Shown: piece by piece, positions 6,872-41,430 of the stretch
Numbering within the stretch: the stretch's first letter is position 1
How the letters are laid out: the number at the start of each line of letters is the position of its first letter
NCBI RefSeq assembly: GCF_003030345.1
Contig: NZ_CP028158.1
Span: 7,254,001-7,318,000, forward strand
Direction: 5' to 3'
Source: Plantactinospora sp. BC1
GTDB lineage: Bacteria; Actinomycetota; Actinomycetes; Mycobacteriales; Micromonosporaceae
DNA: 64,000 nt
Program-made: the position numbers and the translations under genes
Notes under the pieces: generated by a model
Told to the model about the DNA's origin: nothing
The model's database searches: none
Seen by the model: the letters and a program-made list of their open reading frames with translations, nothing else

Positions 6872-7396
6872 TCAACCGAGGATGACCCGCCGGACGTGCA
6901 GCACGTACGCCCAGACGGCGGCGAAGATCAGCCCCAGCGCGCCGAGTGACCAATGCAGGAAGCCGGCGAGCAGCAGCAGCCCCTGTAGGACGGTGGCGGC
7001 GTGCCAGGCCCACGGCCGGCGCAGACACCCCGCCAGTACGGCCGCCAACACCGCGAGCCCGACGACCACCCCGATGGCAGCGCCGCCCAGGTCGCCGCCG
7101 AGGAGTCGGATCGGTTGGATCGCCAGCAGCAGCACCAGCGTCTCGACGCTCAGCGTCAGGGCGCCGAGGCCGCGTACCGCCCGCCCCGGGTCCCGCAGTC
7201 CGGAGGGCCGACCACCGGGGGTACCCGGTGAGCCGCCGTCGTCGACGCGGCCGGCCGTACCCGTCGGACCGCCGCCGTCGACGCGGCCCGCCGCACCCGT
7301 CTGATCGCCGCCGTCGACGCGGCCCGCCGCACCCGTCTGATCCGGGCCGTCGACGGCCCGGTCGGCCGGGTTGACCGCCTCGTCCGGCGCGCTCAT
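6872..7396 (-). CDS. DUF4233 family membrane protein
   Basis: A 174-residue protein starting at ATG 7396, overlapping the folC stop as ATGA, so it is probably translationally coupled to folC. The N-terminal ~65 residues are a hydrophilic repeat region with a DQTGAAGRVDGG unit; the rest carries about four membrane segments. DUF4233 proteins commonly sit just after folC in actinobacteria, and this position supports the call. The role is unknown. Confidence 0.85.
   Translation of the reverse strand: MSAPDEAVNPADRAVDGPDQTGAAGRVDGGDQTGAAGRVDGGGPTGTAGRVDDGGSPGTPGGRPSGLRDPGRAVRGLGALTLSVETLVLLLAIQPIRLLGGDLGGAAIGVVVGLAVLAAVLAGCLRRPWAWHAATVLQGLLLLAGFLHWSLGALGLIFAAVWAYVLHVRRVILG
7238..7358. repeat. 36-bp in-frame tandem repeat in the DUF4233 gene
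   Basis: The core GTCGACGCGGCC recurs at 36-bp steps (units starting near 7238, 7274, 7310 and 7346). Because 36 is a multiple of three it encodes repeated 12-residue units in the N-terminal tail and can change length without a frameshift. Confidence 0.9.
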
Positions 7397-8739
7397 CGCT
7401 TCAGCAGCCGTCGCGCGTCGGCCACGGTCACCACCGAGCCGGTGACCAGCACACCCACCCCGCTCAGCTCGCCCTGCACGTCGGATTCGGCCAGCGCCAC
7501 GGCGGCCTCGATCGCGTCCGGCAGTTCCTCGGCCACCTCGACCCGGTCCGGTCCGAAGACCTCCTCGGCCAGTTCGCCGAGTGCCGCCGCCGACATCGCC
7601 CGGGGCGAGCTGTTCCGGGTCACCACGATCGCGTCGACCACGGGTTCGAGGAGTTCGAGCAGGCTTGCGGCATCCTTGTCCTCCAGTACGCCGACCAGCG
7701 CGATCAGTCGGCTGAACGCGAACTCCTCCTGGAGTGCGGTGACCGTGGCGGCCATGCCGTGCGGGTTGTGCGCCCCGTCCAGCAGGATCGTCGGGGCGGA
7801 CCGCACCCGCTCCAGCCGGCCGGGTGAGTCGGCGGTGGCGAAGCCCTGCCGGACGGTCTCGACGTCGAGCTGGCGGGACGCGCCCGCGCCGAGGAACGCC
7901 TCGACGGCGGCGAGCGCGATCGCGGCGTTCTGCGCCTGGTGTGCGCCGTGCAGGGGTACGAAGACGTTGTCGTAGACCCCGCCGAGGCCCTGCAACGACA
8001 GCACCTGGCCGCCGACCGCCATGCTCCGGCGCAGTACGCCGAACTCGCCGCCCTCCCGGGCGATGGTGGCGCCCACCTCGGCGCAGCGTTCCAGGATCGG
8101 CCCGGCGGCCTCCTCCGGCTGGACCGCCGAGATCACCGTCGCGCCCTTGTGGATGATGCCGGACTTGTGCAGCGCGATGTCCTCGATGGTGTCGCCGAGC
8201 CACTCGGTGTGGTCGAGCCCGATCGGGGTGATGACGGCGATCCCGGCACCCAGCACGTTGGTGGAGTCCTCCGCCCCACCGAGCCCCACCTCGACCACCG
8301 CCACGTCGACCGGGGCGTCGGCGAAGGTGGCGAAGGCGAGCGCCGTGGTCATGTCGAAGTACGTCAACGGCTCGTCGGCGCGCTCGTCGACCAGCCGGGC
8401 CAGCGGCGCCACCTCGCGGTAGACCGAGACGAACCGTTCCTCGCTGATCGGCTCGCCGTCCAGGCTGATCCGCTCCCGCACGGTCTCCAGGTGCGGGCTG
8501 GTGTACCGGCCGGTGTGCAACCCGAACGCCCGGAGCAGCGAGTCGATCATCCGCGCCGTCGACGTCTTGCCGTTGGTGCCGGTCAGGTGGATCGCCGGGT
8601 ACGCCCGCTGCGGGCTGCCGAGCACGTCGAGCAGTTCCTCGATCCGCCCGAGGTCGAAGACCATCCTGGTGTAGCCGCGATCGGCCAGTTCCGCCTCGAC
8701 CCGGGCGAACTCGGCCGCCCGCTCCGTACGCTCACTCAC
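7393..8739 (-). CDS. folC: Folylpolyglutamate/dihydrofolate synthase
   Basis: Adds glutamate to (dihydro)folate in the cytoplasm. The N-terminal YPAIHLTGTNGKTSTARMID holds the Mur-ligase-type ATP loop GTNGKTS; GLHTGRYTSPHLETVRERI and DVAVVEVGLGG follow in the expected order, and the late LLDGAHNPHG matches the family. The chosen start is GTG 8739 (SERTERAAEF), with GAGGAA just upstream. A longer reading continues 47 codons upstream but is made of a VGSVAA repeat and is unlikely to be real. Product length is 448 residues. It is followed immediately by the DUF4233 gene. Confidence 0.95.
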   Translation of the reverse strand: MSERTERAAEFARVEAELADRGYTRMVFDLGRIEELLDVLGSPQRAYPAIHLTGTNGKTSTARMIDSLLRAFGLHTGRYTSPHLETVRERISLDGEPISEERFVSVYREVAPLARLVDERADEPLTYFDMTTALAFATFADAPVDVAVVEVGLGGAEDSTNVLGAGIAVITPIGLDHTEWLGDTIEDIALHKSGIIHKGATVISAVQPEEAAGPILERCAEVGATIAREGGEFGVLRRSMAVGGQVLSLQGLGGVYDNVFVPLHGAHQAQNAAIALAAVEAFLGAGASRQLDVETVRQGFATADSPGRLERVRSAPTILLDGAHNPHGMAATVTALQEEFAFSRLIALVGVLEDKDAASLLELLEPVVDAIVVTRNSSPRAMSAAALGELAEEVFGPDRVEVAEELPDAIEAAVALAESDVQGELSGVGVLVTGSVVTVADARRLLKR

Positions 8740-35961: not shown

Positions 35962-38244
35962 GTGACCGGACAGCAGGCACCGACCGCCGTACGGCCGGCG
36001 TCGACCGCCGGGGACGGCCCCACCGAGCGGCCGGCCGGGGTGGTGCTGGAGGCGGTACTGGAGCGGATCACCTACGCCAACGAGGAGACCGGCTACACCA
36101 TCGCCCGGTTCGCCACCGAACGCAGCGGCCCCGACCTGCTGACCGTGGTCGGCTCGCTGCTCGGGTTGCAGCCCGGCGAGAGCGTACGGCTGGTCGGGCG
36201 CTGGGGCACGCACCCGAAGTACGGGCGGCAGTTCGAGGTGCAGTCGTACACGACGGTGCTGCCGGCGACGGTCCAGGGCATCGAGCGGTACCTCGGCTCG
36301 GGGCTGATCAAGGGGATCGGGCCGAAGATGGCCGAACGGATCGTCGGGCATTTCGGCGTCGACACCCTGCGGGTGATCGAGGAGGAGGTCGGGCGGCTGG
36401 TCGAGGTCCCCGGGCTCGGCCCGAAGCGGACGAAACTCATCGCCGCCGCCTGGGTCGAGCAACAGTCCATCAAGGAGGTGATGGTCTTCCTCCAGGGCGT
36501 CGGCGTCTCCACCTCGCTGGCCGTACGCATCTACAAGAAGTACGGCGACGGCTCCATCTCGGTCGTCCGCAACGAGCCGTACCGGTTGGCCGCCGACGTC
36601 TGGGGGATCGGCTTCAAGACCGCCGACACCATCGCCCAAGCGGTCGGCATCCCGCACGACAGCCCGCAGCGGGTCCGGGCCGGCATCCAGTACACCCTCT
36701 CCGAGGCCGCCGACGCCGGGCACTGCTACCTGCCCGAGCCGAACCTGGTCGCGGACGCCGCCGAGATCCTCGGGGTCCCCGTCGAACTGGTCCGGGACTG
36801 CCTGGCCGACCTCGCCGCCGACGAGGGCGTGGTCCGGGAGGCGGTGCCGAACCCGAGCGCCGAGGGCGGCACCATTCCGGCGGTCTACCTGGTGCCGTTC
36901 CACCGGGCCGAGTCGGCGCTCGCGGCGAGCCTGCTCCGGCTGCTGCATCACCGTGACGACCGGATGCCGGCCTTCGCGACCGTGGACTGGGCGAAGGCGC
37001 TGGCCTGGCTGCGTACCCGGACGGGTGCCGAACTGGCCCCCGAGCAGGAGGCCGCGGTCCGGCTCGCCCTGACCTCGAAGGTCGCGGTGCTGACCGGCGG
37101 ACCCGGCTGCGGCAAGTCGTTCACCGTCTCCTCGGTGATCACACTCGCCGCCGCCAAGGGGGCGAAGATCGTGCTGGCCGCGCCGACCGGCCGGGCCGCG
37201 AAGCGGATGACCGAACTTACCGGGCATCCGGCCGCGACCGTGCACCGGCTGCTGCAACTGCGCCCCGGCGGCGACCCGACGCACGACCGGGACAACCCGA
37301 TCGACGCCGACCTGGTGGTGGTGGACGAGGCGTCGATGCTCGACCTGCTCCTGGCGAACAAGCTGGTCAGGGCGGTCGCACCCGGCGCGCACCTGCTGCT
37401 GGTCGGCGACGTCGACCAACTCCCCTCGGTCGGGGCCGGCGAGGTGCTCCGGGACGTGCTCGGCGCCGGGTCGATCCCCCGGGTCCGGCTGACGAAAATC
37501 TTCCGGCAGGCGCAGCAGTCCGGGGTGGTGGTGAACGCGCACCGGATCAACGCCGGCCAGTCCCCGCTGCTCGGCGAATATCCCGACTTCTTCCTCTTTC
37601 CGGTGGACGAGCCGGAGGCCACCGCCGACCTGGTGGTGGACATCGTCGCCCGCCGGGTGCCCCGCAAGTTCGGCCTGAAGCCCCGGGACATCCAGGTGCT
37701 CACCCCGATGCACCGGGGCCCGGCCGGCGCCGGCAGCCTGAACACCGCGCTGCAACAGGCGATCTCGCCCTATCGGGAGGGGCAGCCGGAGCGTCGGCAC
37801 GGCGCCCGGGTCTTCCGGGTCGGCGACAAGGTCATCCAGATCAGGAACAACTACGACAAGGGCGCCGCCGGGGTCTTCAACGGCACCGTCGGGGTGGTCA
37901 CCGAACTGTCGGTCGAGGACCGGAAACTCACCGTCCGCACCGACGAGGCCGAGGAGATCGGGTACGACTTCGACGAACTCGACGAGCTGCAACACGCGTA
38001 CGCCATCACGGTGCACCGGTCCCAGGGCAGCGAGTACCCGGCGGTGGTGATCCCGGTGACGATGAGTTCCTACACGTTGTTGCAGCGGAACCTGCTCTAC
38101 ACGGCGGTGACCCGGGCCCGGAAGCTGGTGGTACTGGCCGGCTCGCGCAAGGCGCTGGCGATCGCGGTCCGTACCGCCGGCACCGGCCGCCGGCACACCG
38201 CACTCACCCACCGGCTCGGCGGGCTCGACCTTGCTGTGACGTGA
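35962..38244 (+). CDS. recD2: RecD2-type helicase
   Basis: A 760-residue SF1B 5'-3' DNA helicase that works without RecBC. It has an N-terminal OB-like domain (LEAVLERITYANEETGYTIA), helix-hairpin-helix motifs (GIGPKMAERIVG and VPGLGPKR), Walker A GGPGCGKSFT, motif Ia PTGRAAKRM, Walker B DLVVVDEASMLD, motif III GDVDQLPSVGAG, and C-terminal motifs AYAITVHRSQGSEYPAV and RNLLYTAVTRA. GTG 35962 is preferred; another GTG lies 18 nt upstream in frame. Role: DNA repair and replication fork maintenance. Confidence 0.93.
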   Translation: MTGQQAPTAVRPASTAGDGPTERPAGVVLEAVLERITYANEETGYTIARFATERSGPDLLTVVGSLLGLQPGESVRLVGRWGTHPKYGRQFEVQSYTTVLPATVQGIERYLGSGLIKGIGPKMAERIVGHFGVDTLRVIEEEVGRLVEVPGLGPKRTKLIAAAWVEQQSIKEVMVFLQGVGVSTSLAVRIYKKYGDGSISVVRNEPYRLAADVWGIGFKTADTIAQAVGIPHDSPQRVRAGIQYTLSEAADAGHCYLPEPNLVADAAEILGVPVELVRDCLADLAADEGVVREAVPNPSAEGGTIPAVYLVPFHRAESALAASLLRLLHHRDDRMPAFATVDWAKALAWLRTRTGAELAPEQEAAVRLALTSKVAVLTGGPGCGKSFTVSSVITLAAAKGAKIVLAAPTGRAAKRMTELTGHPAATVHRLLQLRPGGDPTHDRDNPIDADLVVVDEASMLDLLLANKLVRAVAPGAHLLLVGDVDQLPSVGAGEVLRDVLGAGSIPRVRLTKIFRQAQQSGVVVNAHRINAGQSPLLGEYPDFFLFPVDEPEATADLVVDIVARRVPRKFGLKPRDIQVLTPMHRGPAGAGSLNTALQQAISPYREGQPERRHGARVFRVGDKVIQIRNNYDKGAAGVFNGTVGVVTELSVEDRKLTVRTDEAEEIGYDFDELDELQHAYAITVHRSQGSEYPAVVIPVTMSSYTLLQRNLLYTAVTRARKLVVLAGSRKALAIAVRTAGTGRRHTALTHRLGGLDLAVT

Positions 38245-38357
38245 ATCACGGGTCCGTTCTCGACCGATAACGCGGCGATGTCTCGTTAGGACTCTTGCCG
38301 TCCGGCGTACGCCCGCCGCGCCGGCCCGAGTGTCCCCCTGTCACCGGACGGAACAAC

Positions 38358-38663
38358 ATGTCGCACACACCGGTCAGAGTCGAGATCTTCCCGACCGACG
38401 GCACCGATCCCCGCCAGATCGGCCCGAGTCGGCGGCTCACCACCCTGCTACAGGAACGCGCCGACGACATCGGCACCGCCGTCCGGGACATCTCCCGGAT
38501 GCTGCGCGAGTCGGTGCAGACCGAACCCGACGACACCGGATTCCGGGTCTCGACCGTGACCTCGACCTTCGGGCTGAGCCTCGCCACCAGCGGCGGCGTC
38601 GTCGTCACCCGGGCGTCGGCCGAGGTCTCGTTCGAGGTCACCCTCACCATCGAACGTGCCTGA
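38358..38663 (+). CDS. Trypco1-like protein (trypsin-co-occurring domain)
   Basis: A 101-residue cytoplasmic protein: VRVEIFPTDG, a helix (RLTTLLQERADDIGTAVRDI), then FGLSLATSGGVVVTRASAEV and a closing strand EVTLTIERA. This beta-helix-beta layout with the FGL...G.V...A...F.V.L pattern fits the Trypco1 family as I remember it from work on bacterial conflict systems. It is followed after 6 nt by a trypsin-like protease, which is the context that gives the family its name. ATG 38358 (MSHTPVRVEI) is chosen. The function of the domain is not established. Confidence 0.65.
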   Translation: MSHTPVRVEIFPTDGTDPRQIGPSRRLTTLLQERADDIGTAVRDISRMLRESVQTEPDDTGFRVSTVTSTFGLSLATSGGVVVTRASAEVSFEVTLTIERA

Positions 38664-38669
38664 GCCGTC

Positions 38670-39524
38670 GTGCCGTCCCGGAACTCCTACCTGGTCAGGA
38701 TCCGTCCGCGCGACAAGCCCGACGCGACACCCGGGTACACCGTCGGGTTCCTGGTCAGCAGCCACTGGGTGATCACCGCAGGGCACTGCCTCGCCCGGCT
38801 CGCCCAGGACGAACCGGTGACGATGACCGTGGCCGGCAGCGGAACGGTCGACGGGCGGGTGGTGCGGATCGCCCGACGCGACGACCTCGGCCTGATCTGC
38901 GTCACCGGCACGCTGCCCCGGGCCGTCGTCCGGCCGGTGCTGGCCAGGGCGGCCGACAACGACGGCTGGGTGGCACCGGCCCGGCCGGAGGCCAGCCCGC
39001 ACCGGCTGACGGGGTCGGTGCTCAACGCCGACCTGCGACACCGGTGCACCGGCGGCGGCGAGATCGCGGCGCTCGAACTCAAGGTCGAGCAGGAACTCGG
39101 CGACTACCGGGGCTACAGCGGCGGTCCGGTCGAGCGGGTACGACGCCCCTCCGACGAGCCCGGCCCACCGGCCGTACTCGGCATGCTCGTCGAGCAGGCA
39201 CCGAAGTGGAACCACTCCGGCGACGCCACCAACGTACTGATCGCGGTGCAGGCCGAGTACGCCCTCGCCGAACTCGACGTCCTCGCCGACGCCCGCCGGA
39301 TCGCCCAGGAGAACACCCGGGCACTGCAACGGGCGTACGACGCCGAACCGGTCGGGCTGACCGAGGAACTCCGGGAACTCAACGTGATGGGTGACCAGCT
39401 CGACCGCATGATCAGTCGGGGCCTGCTGGGGCGCCGCAAGGCCCGCCGTTTTCTGCACAAGGTGCTGGACCGGACCCTCCGGTACTGGATCGCCAGGAGC
39501 AGCCGTGACCAGATCCGCACCTGA
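38670..39524 (+). CDS. Trypsin-like serine protease without signal peptide
   Basis: A 284-residue protein from GTG 38670. The S1-family triad is visible: His39 in WVITAGHCL, Asp71 or 72 in RRDDLGLICV and Ser150 in YRGYSGGPV. No secretion signal, so it likely acts in the cytoplasm. After the protease fold (about 205 residues) comes a helical C-terminal tail (ELNVMGDQLDRMISRGLLGR...). The gene is 6 nt after the Trypco1-like gene and overlaps the next gene by 20 nt. Cytoplasmic trypsins in such sets are thought to activate partner effectors by cleavage. Confidence 0.85.
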   Translation: MPSRNSYLVRIRPRDKPDATPGYTVGFLVSSHWVITAGHCLARLAQDEPVTMTVAGSGTVDGRVVRIARRDDLGLICVTGTLPRAVVRPVLARAADNDGWVAPARPEASPHRLTGSVLNADLRHRCTGGGEIAALELKVEQELGDYRGYSGGPVERVRRPSDEPGPPAVLGMLVEQAPKWNHSGDATNVLIAVQAEYALAELDVLADARRIAQENTRALQRAYDAEPVGLTEELRELNVMGDQLDRMISRGLLGRRKARRFLHKVLDRTLRYWIARSSRDQIRT

Positions 39525-41430
39525 CGACCTCGTACTCGACGAGCTGCTGCCCCGGGCCATCGCGGAGGCCGAGGCGGCGTTGCGGCGGCCGGGCCGGTGC
39601 CGGGCCGGGTTCGACCCGCTGCGGCCGGCGCTGAGTTCGCTGGCCGCCTTCGACACGAAGCGGAACCCGGGCGCCGTGCACCGGCTCGCGATGCTGCTCA
39701 CCCGGCTCGGCCTGCACGCCGAGGCCGGACGGCTGCTCGACTGGGCGGCCTGGCGGACCACCCGGGGCAGCGACGCCTGGCTGGCCACCGAGAACGTCCG
39801 GGCGATCCTCGCCGCGGCCCGGGGCGACCGGGACCGGGCGGCGATCCTGCTCGACCTGGCCCTGCGCACCACCGACCGGCTCTCGGTGACCAGCGCGAAA
39901 CTCCACGCCAACCTCGCCGTCCTCTGCCTGGAGACCGGCGAGTCCGGTCGGGCCGCCCGGCACGCGACCGCCGCGCTGACCGCCGCGATCGCCACCGACC
40001 GCCCGGCGGAGTGGCCGGCCGACCTGCTGGCCAGCGCGGAAACCAGCGCCATGCAGGCGATCGAACGGTCCGCCACCGATCCGCCGGGTACCGCGCAGGA
40101 GTTGCGGGACCTCGCCGAGACCCAGTTCGCGCTGGCGATGCGGCGCCGACGGCTCGACCTCGTGGAGTCGGCGATCGAGGTGATGGAGCTGGCCGGTCAG
40201 CACCTGACCGCCCGGCTGCCGGCCGGCCACCCGGAGGCGGTACGGCTGGGCGAGGAACTCGCCACCGCCGAGGAGCGGTACGCCGACCTGCGCGCGGCGA
40301 ACCCCGCCACCCCGGCCGACGCGACCGCACCGACCGCCGCCGGCCACCCGACCGCCGCCGGCCCGCCGGACGCGGTCGTCCCGGACGCGCCACCCGGCAC
40401 CCCGCCGGATCGGGGCAGGCTGGGCGTGCCGGAGGCGTACCACTGGGTGGTGGAGCGCTATCTGGACAGCGTCTTCCGGTTCGTCTACTACCGGGTCGGT
40501 GACCGGCGACTCGCCGCCGAACTGACCTCGACCGCCGTACGCCGCGTGCTGCACCGGATCGACACGTTCGCTGGCCCCGACCGTGAGCTGGGCGCCTGGC
40601 TGATCGACACCGCCCGGGAGGTACTGGCCGACCACCGTCCGGGTGACCGGTCACCGGTCGACGACCCGGACCACCCGCTCCGGGACGGCGCCGCCGAGCT
40701 GGTGAACGGCCCGCTGCTGGCCGCACTCCGGCACCTCGACCCGGAACAGCGGGACTGCCTCGTCCTCCGCTTCCTCCAAGCGTTCTCGCTGGCGGAGACC
40801 GCCCGGGCGATGGGGCAGGCCGAGAGCCGGATCCGGGCGGTACAGCACCGGGGGGTCCGGGCACTGACCCGGCTGCTGCCGCCCGGGCCGCCGCCGCCCT
40901 GGTCGGACCTGACGCGGCGCCGGGTGCACCAGGGCCGGTACCTGCTGCGCAGGCTGCTCCGCCCCAGCCCACCCGACCTCTTCCGGGGCGACGGCGAGGA
41001 CAGCGCCCCCGCCGCCGGCCCGGGCGTCGTGCACAGTGCCGACCGGCTGATCGTGCTCGGGCTCCAGCTCCGGGCCATCCCGACCTCGCCCGCCAGCTGC
41101 CCTGCCCCCACGAGCCCCTGCCGGCAGCACCCGACCGGCTGTCCGCCGGCACTCCTGCCGCCGGACGCCGACGCCCGGCTCCGGAGCATGCTGCTGGCGA
41201 TCGTCGGTGGAGCGGCCGTCACGATGGCCGGTGCCGACGACAGCGGCGCCGCACCGGGTACGTCCGGCGGTGCCGCCCGGAGCGGATCCCGGATCGTCGT
41301 GCCGGGGCGGGCCGGGTCCGGGCGGGGCGCTGAGGAGGGCGGACTCCGCCCGAGGCGGAGAAAGACATCGACAGACGTTTCCGTATCTGGCGCCGGGTGC
41401 GTACGGTGGCGCCATGAGGCAGCCCGGTGA
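39505..41430 (+). CDS. TPR-like domain fused to an ECF-type sigma factor
   Basis: A 641-residue protein from GTG 39505. Residues 1-~270 are helical repeats of TPR character (TKRNPGAVHRLAMLLTRLGL; LATENVRAILAAARGDRDRA; SAKLHANLAVLCLETGESGR). A Pro/Ala linker (~275-310) is followed by sigma region 2 (AYHWVVERYLDSVFRFVYYR) and region 4 (LAALRHLDPEQRDCLVLRFL, then AETARAMGQAESRIRAVQHR). The last ~190 residues are low complexity and may be partly unreliable. The start overlaps the protease gene by 20 nt, and the end overlaps the CGNR gene by 17 nt. Likely an operon partner of the protease: the TPR part could sense it or be its substrate. Confidence 0.75.
   Translation: MTRSAPDDLVLDELLPRAIAEAEAALRRPGRCRAGFDPLRPALSSLAAFDTKRNPGAVHRLAMLLTRLGLHAEAGRLLDWAAWRTTRGSDAWLATENVRAILAAARGDRDRAAILLDLALRTTDRLSVTSAKLHANLAVLCLETGESGRAARHATAALTAAIATDRPAEWPADLLASAETSAMQAIERSATDPPGTAQELRDLAETQFALAMRRRRLDLVESAIEVMELAGQHLTARLPAGHPEAVRLGEELATAEERYADLRAANPATPADATAPTAAGHPTAAGPPDAVVPDAPPGTPPDRGRLGVPEAYHWVVERYLDSVFRFVYYRVGDRRLAAELTSTAVRRVLHRIDTFAGPDRELGAWLIDTAREVLADHRPGDRSPVDDPDHPLRDGAAELVNGPLLAALRHLDPEQRDCLVLRFLQAFSLAETARAMGQAESRIRAVQHRGVRALTRLLPPGPPPPWSDLTRRRVHQGRYLLRRLLRPSPPDLFRGDGEDSAPAAGPGVVHSADRLIVLGLQLRAIPTSPASCPAPTSPCRQHPTGCPPALLPPDADARLRSMLLAIVGGAAVTMAGADDSGAAPGTSGGAARSGSRIVVPGRAGSGRGAEEGGLRPRRRKTSTDVSVSGAGCVRWRHEAAR
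41402..41413 (+). promoter_or_regulatory. Candidate -10 box for a leaderless CGNR transcript
   Basis: TACGGT at 41402-41407 ends six nt before ATG 41414. It resembles the TACGGTGGC context before the gene at 11637. Confidence 0.4.

Follow-up and report, generated by a model that had tools for sequence, protein, structure and literature searches.

We analysed a 64,000-nucleotide stretch (referred to as the window) of the genome of Plantactinospora sp. BC1, which is assembled as one contig of 8.33 Mb, and identified a three-gene set that appears, from sequence comparison, to represent a modular intracellular actinobacterial system composed of a Trypco1 protein, a cytoplasmic trypsin and a tetratricopeptide repeat (TPR) scaffold with an exchangeable C-terminal module. 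Here we refer to the three proteins as P1, P2 and P3, respectively. The module carried by P3 is probably a diverged copy of the bacterium's own BldN-type extracytoplasmic function (ECF) sigma factor. The constant parts of the system suggest a regulated protease complex, and the swappable part suggests contact with something fast-changing. A preliminary description of positions 38358–41430 of the window had reported a Trypco1 gene, a signal-less trypsin with an intact triad and a TPR-sigma fusion, and all three were confirmed (Table 1).

A match of P1 to the Trypco1 profile, set beforehand as a test of that description, was found for PF19493 at 42.3 bits (curated cut-off 24.6), and Trypco1 was the sole Pfam match of P1 at E values up to 1. 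P2 starts 6 nucleotides downstream and was assigned to the trypsin fold, including the His-Asp-Ser triad, by alignment, AlphaFold2 model and PDB fold matches, while its residues ~195–283 form C-terminal helices. The triad was invariant in the 41 aligned trypsins. P2 itself scored under the Pfam gathering thresholds (20.1 vs 20.6 for Trypsin and 19.4 vs 27.6 for Trypsin_2), and its relatives in loci L070, L071, L072 and L074 each reach at least one of these thresholds. Across the relatives, identity in the best tblastn segment was 29–42%. The only PADLOC match of P2 at E values up to 1 was Avs1b (1.4e-5). P2 is referred to here as a predicted cytoplasmic protease.

Residues 6–271 of P3 form a TPR-type helical solenoid by model, for which Z values need the caution due to helical repeats, and the TPR_2 score lay below the Pfam cut-off (10.4 vs 27 bits). 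AlphaFold2 modelled this part confidently and did not place the sigma part and the tail; the predicted local distance difference test score (pLDDT) was below 50 at residues 272–318. Sigma regions 2 and 4 both exceeded their Pfam cut-offs (30.5 and 41.3 bits), and P3 remained below the NCBIfam cut-off for BldN equivalogs (TIGR02952, 96.5 vs 206.45 bits). The identification by profile anticipated in the preliminary description thus held for Trypco1 and both sigma regions, but not for Trypsin, Trypsin_2 and TPR_2.

The only other match of P3 in its own genome, at E values up to 0.001, was the BldN-like sigma factor. The two showed 52% identity overall, 54% in region 2 and 63% in region 4, with a ratio of nonsynonymous to synonymous substitutions (dN/dS) of 0.62; this ratio, here and below, pools both copies of each pair. 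The native AEDLTSDTFL is AAELTSTAVR in P3, and region 2 is changed at hallmark positions that are usually conserved in sigma factors, so that a working sigma factor in the window is doubtful.

Related loci were searched for in the genomes of the family, where the best 6 to 10 candidates were scored per genome and the counts are therefore lower bounds. With P2 as the query, at least 15 of 354 genomes matched at E values up to 0.001, and with a consensus of the relatives' trypsins at least 38 of 354. The close type (above 90 bits with the consensus query) was present in at least five genomes, namely the window genome, G118, G125, G103 and G255, the last of which has two intact loci and a decayed one. 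In the decayed locus (L086, positions 7159–8736), the trypsin has lost its N-terminal half with His and Asp and continues in frame into the TPR region, and no module is present.

Scanning genome contigs with a six-trypsin alignment gave matches in 84 stretches, of which 40 were confirmed as actinobacterial loci, 33 of them from Streptomyces (L102 duplicates L070 and L115 duplicates L071, so that each pair enters the count once; L090, L098 and L113 are cut off by the contig end). The gene linkage claimed earlier was kept in them, with Trypco1 accompanying the trypsin in 38 of 40 loci (exceptions L093 and L110) and a third gene, defined as the longest frame following the trypsin and measuring 423 codons or more, in 39 of 40. 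Trypco1 follows the third gene in L115 and lies upstream of the trypsin in L103 and L118. Within Micromonosporaceae, the expected conservation of neighbours was borne out for the TPR-module gene, which comes next in each of the other five intact loci, but the module differs among them and L073 and L074 have no Trypco1 within the 15 kb examined; L070 and L071 have it, and in L072 it is divergent on the opposite strand.

A profile built from 37 third-protein N-termini recovered all six held-out ones, including P3 (2.8e-16), the 37 training rows matching by construction, and matched none of 500 shuffles of the P3 N-terminus at E values up to 10 (alignment A3 comprises P3 and 32 of the 39 available N-termini). 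Since control TPR genes of L084 (2e-12), L076 (2.9e-6) and L070 (1.6e-4) were matched as well, the profile indicates a TPR region of this kind and not exclusive kinship. A direct search with the P3 TPR part in 250 family genomes returned P3 itself and two weak matches, as a lower bound, and none of 165 pattern matches in the genome contigs was confirmed; the kinship of P3 was detected through the trypsin and not through its TPR part. Trypco1 was rejected as a marker of the set: of the 30 top-scoring Trypco1 loci of the family, two had a weak match to a P2-type trypsin within 1.5 kb and none had a TPR gene within that distance.

Annotation of 43 third proteins (excluding L120, with a third ORF of 184 aa) revealed a wide range of C-terminal modules. 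The Pfam counts, which give 25 of 36 families, comprised BTAD/SARP (17), NB-ARC (12), CHAT (4), HAD (3), sigma region 4 (3) and sigma region 2 (2), in addition to single cases of S1, kinase, amino-acid-kinase, response regulator, ANTAR and LacI-type binding domain, the latter with a LacI helix-turn-helix (HTH). Per-protein Pfam tables cover 16 of the 43, and the other 27 were classed from the Pfam counts and blastp clusters; outside Pfam, an HTH-type module in L117 and L121 and a membrane-type module in L112 and L122 are presumed by inspection. In the close Micromonosporaceae loci, the TPR region is joined to a BldN-like sigma factor (L072), a UMP kinase (L074), ribosomal S1 repeats (L071), a response regulator with ANTAR (L070) or further TPRs (L073). 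Regions 2 and 4 occurred together in only two of the 43 third proteins, and region 4 alone in one more (L108). The TPR-sigma fusion is thus real in the window, but a sigma factor as the fixed third part, as it had been presented, was rejected. Among the CHAT modules, those of L118, L123 and L124 appeared by eye to be degenerate around the catalytic His/Cys, and that of L104 appeared intact.

On the trypsin tree, in which the placement of the window trypsin depends on a long branch and L120 has no class, 16 module classes need 18 changes compared with 29.3 for shuffled labels, so that the modules seem to be partly inherited and partly replaced; many of them, clustered on the tree, are probably inherited. 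A module swap at a fixed boundary is clearest between L121 and L123. Their DNA alignment starts upstream of Trypco1, spans 2434 columns at 87.8% identity and stops near residue 349 of the third protein; past that point there was no match at E values of 1e-10 (DNA) or 1e-3 (protein).

Four Micromonosporaceae modules are close copies of the cell's own proteins, the first three of which are, by inspection, presumably PyrH, RpsA and PdtaR. The UMP kinase module (G255) showed 76% identity to the gene of the same genome (dN/dS 0.21), the S1 module (G125) 76% over 363 residues or 79% over 312 (dN/dS 0.37), the response-regulator module (G118) 88% (dN/dS 0.11) and the sigma module of L072 (G103) 80% to the native BldN-like sigma factor (dN/dS 0.10). 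By inspection, the S1 alignment begins inside native S1, without its first part. The L072 sigma module showed 84% identity in region 2 and 86% in region 4 and retained its region-2 residues; the other two of the three sigma modules, from the window and L108, look weakened in region 2.

Tentatively, and with slightly less than even confidence, we favour a protease-armed sensor with a host-mimicking bait. The module would be a bait resembling a host protein, and an invader protein that attacks the genuine version would bind or damage it. The TPR solenoid would then relay this signal from the bait to Trypco1 and the trypsin, and the freed protease may cut cellular targets or its own complex, by which the infected cell would be stopped. 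We infer the physical interaction, trigger and substrate of the set, and also a role in defence, given its association with Trypco1 and the swapping of modules. The bait is favoured because of the four host-like modules under constraint, the shortened S1, the weakened sigma region 2 and the TPR-only modules. The sigma modules of the window and L108 seem easier to reconcile with a sigma-like surface than with a functional sigma factor, and TPR-only modules would also suit a sensing role. As to the sigma factor concerned, a bldN mutant of S. venezuelae gave large clear plaques with no significant shrinkage, and BldN is thus relevant in phage infection (PMC10117723). We consider it possible, and hold somewhat more loosely, that the whole family comprises bacterial integrated-decoy receptors, whose Trypco1/trypsin/TPR core would take up host-protein copies as interchangeable baits and turn recognition into proteolysis. 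Should the modules be baits, their identities would amount to a list of the host proteins attacked by invaders of actinobacteria, and the loci could be matched to phages.

Several points weigh against the bait. At least 21 of the 43 modules are regulators of transcription or antitermination (17 SARP, 2 sigma, LacI and the response regulator with ANTAR), which is not what a bait predicts. By inspection, the kinase module of L099 retains its catalytic motifs and the receiver of L102 its Asp, so both look intact. The comparison with host copies is confined to five Micromonosporaceae genomes, and the weakened window sigma, at 52% identity and a dN/dS of 0.62, does not bear out a constraint on the window module to remain similar to its host counterpart. 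Moreover, L073 and L074 do without a Trypco1 neighbour, and no invader protein targeting any of the modules is known here.

The abundance of regulators is what would be predicted by release of a regulator through proteolysis, which we regard as a real possibility, although a lesser one. The TPR region would keep the module inactive until a signal prompts the trypsin to cut the linker, and the sigma factor, SARP, LacI, kinase or other module, once free, would reprogram the cell. The intact-looking kinase, LacI and response-regulator modules agree with this, as do the linker of P3, disordered by pLDDT between TPR and module, and the L072 sigma module, so close to its native counterpart and with its region-2 residues kept. 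Precedents are a pro-nuclease activated by trypsin cleavage in Hachiman and AVAST (PMC12799240) and the sigma-bound Csx30 cut by Craspase (PMC9729208), and the unshrunken plaques of the bldN mutant (PMC10117723) also speak for it. On the other hand, no cleavage site is known, the window sigma has a diverged region 2 and a dN/dS of 0.62, and the UMP kinase, the shortened S1, the TPR-only and the degenerate-looking CHAT modules are hard to see as freed regulators. The protease-controlled transcriptional alarm of the preliminary description, which the regulator modules favour and which the diverged and exchangeable sigma part disfavours, survives as this second explanation. If it is right, the set would offer a general route to direct cytoplasmic protease control of transcription.

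It is unlikely that the freed or exposed module is a dominant-negative effector that poisons the host machine it copies (RNA polymerase, ribosome or UMP kinase) and so arrests the cell. Modules that are host-like yet shortened or diverged, such as S1 without its first part and the sigma with region 4 better kept than region 2, would suit this, and dominant-negative interactions were proposed for related systems by Kaur et al. (PMC7159879), but the intact-looking kinase, LacI and response-regulator modules and the TPR-only modules do not.

We class the set as a variant of the variable-module peptidase conflict systems already known. The name Trypco1 goes back to Kaur et al. in 2020, who gave it to genes adjoining the trypsins of VMAP systems (PMC7159879). 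The VMAP ternary systems resemble the set in having a trypsin with a neighbouring Trypco1 and variable modules, some of which are inactive versions of enzymes active in the cell and were suggested to be decoys (PMC7159879). The ternary systems with Trypco1 or Trypco2 differ in that the window set has no MoxR ATPase or vWA gene and its trypsin has no VMAP part. The EACC1 two-gene system, prevalent in actinobacteria, likewise combines a small constant gene and a peptidase with a C-terminal slot for up to 50 domains, including EF-Tu and periplasmic-binding ones; unlike the set, with its Trypco1, separate trypsin and TPR scaffold bearing the module, it has a small protein with a membrane helix, and its module is fused to the peptidase itself, a caspase (PMC7159879). 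P1 does not resemble the transmembrane 5′ gene of EACC1, its Pfam matches at E values up to 1 being limited to Trypco1, and in P3 Pfam and AlphaFold2 gave a helical solenoid and sigma regions instead of an N-terminal caspase domain.

EACC2-caspase neighbourhoods, for which a transcriptional step was proposed in the 2021 sequel (PMC8195603), bring together a peptidase, TPRs (DUF1822) and an ECF sigma factor, but the peptidase is a caspase and not a trypsin, and sigma and TPR are separate genes. In type III-E CRISPR, the TPR-bearing protease Craspase acts in defence on Csx30, which is bound to RpoE, but it is RNA-guided and caspase-type, with the sigma factor a separate protein (PMC9729208). The nuclease-trypsin pairs of Hachiman and AVAST have an intracellular trypsin that activates its partner by cleavage (trypsin activity being predicted here), but the partner is a metallo-beta-lactamase-fold nuclease, and the trypsin forms part of a fusion with a defence enzyme (PMC12799240). 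Some ECF sigma factors are also joined to TPRs, but the extension is C-terminal, and the available sections mention no trypsin or Trypco1 partner (PMC8999054).

The layout had been taken as undescribed; the general idea is not, because of the EACC2-caspase/ECF sigma/TPR proposal (PMC8195603) and of Csx30 cleavage by Craspase (PMC9729208). Among the papers listed in searches of the open-access PMC literature (subscription papers, preprints and supplementary tables were outside the search), we found no description of the combination of Trypco1, a separate trypsin and a TPR-module protein, nor of a fixed module boundary or copies of housekeeping proteins at the module position. The word sigma is absent from the main text of PMC7159879, whose supplementary tables could list members of the set. 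With their conserved core, fixed boundary and host-copy modules, these loci would make the decoy idea for related systems directly testable.

The set lies between genes for RecD2 and an ABATE/CGNR protein (Pfam), and three genes are called within the inserted 3.1 kb. Comparison by blastn with the locus of congener G002 (L016) showed 94% identity up to position 38216 and 88% from 41362. Since in G002 recD2 is followed by the ABATE/CGNR gene, with 124 unmatched bases there vs 3145 in the window, the set is most simply read, from this one congener, as a discrete insertion of ~3.1 kb. The stop codon of P3 lies 17 bases inside the ABATE/CGNR gene (41414–41430), and the final 22 codons of P3 are flank DNA common to G002, which has no set. 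Within the genus, the set was present in one of seven genomes, by match to the N-terminal part of P3, and P2 matched the window genome and G001 (35%, within a 1013-codon frame). Least likely of all, a decaying or misfused locus with no present function would agree with this rarity, the read-through into the flank, the dN/dS of 0.62 of the window sigma and the decayed relative L086, but it sits poorly with three open frames, an intact triad, coding composition of P3 up to about residue 600 and the predicted, confidently modelled TPR part.

Table 1 Features of the three-gene set (positions in the window)
Feature	Position	Strand	Basis
P1, Trypco1 protein, 101 aa	38358..38663	+	Pfam PF19493, NCBIfam CU044_2847
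P2, signal-less trypsin-fold serine protease, 284 aa	38670..39524	+	AlphaFold2, PDB fold matches, weak Pfam matches
P2 catalytic His39 codon	38784..38786	+	invariant in 41 aligned sequences
P2 catalytic Asp72 codon	38883..38885	+	invariant in 41 aligned sequences
P2 catalytic Ser150 codon (GYSGGPV)	39117..39119	+	invariant in 41 aligned sequences
P3, TPR-sigma fusion protein, 641 aa	39505..41430	+	
P3 constant TPR solenoid, aa 6–271	39520..40317	+	
P3 Pro/Ala-rich linker, aa 272–308, predicted disordered	40318..40428	+	pLDDT
P3 sigma region 2, aa 309–377, diverged	40429..40635	+	Pfam, 30.5 bits
P3 sigma region 4, aa 401–459, better kept	40705..40881	+	Pfam, 41.3 bits
P3 C-terminal tail, aa 460–641, no recognised domain	40882..41427	+	
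Stretch absent from congener G002	38217..41361	.	blastn of L016 vs window

A built-in anti-sigma tail in P3, considered because the tail resembled the beginning of the gene that lies downstream of the native BldN-like sigma factor, was unsupported: the profile of that gene scored 6.4 bits against the tail, a value equalled or exceeded by 3 of 2000 shuffles, and 197 of 3000 shuffles and 77 of 571 control windows attained the gapped alignment score. A second Trypco1 gene was detected in the same genome (L088, 6996–7415; C1:1245513–1245803), and the surrounding 14.5 kb contained neither a P2-like trypsin nor a P3-like gene. The related trypsin of L089 had no match in 72,556 plasmid records at an E value of 1e-5. 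One contig of a viral collection (L170, 3178–7758), matched by alignment A4, carries Trypco1, trypsin and a TPR protein with, by eye, a membrane-type module like that of L122. Distant family trypsins in L084, L085 and L081 lie, by eye, beside MoxR-like ATPase and vWA-like genes, an arrangement shared with VMAP ternary systems. In L100 (8528–12525), a small gene that by eye is Trypco2-like and a second, larger trypsin-like gene come right after the Trypco1-trypsin-TPR set.

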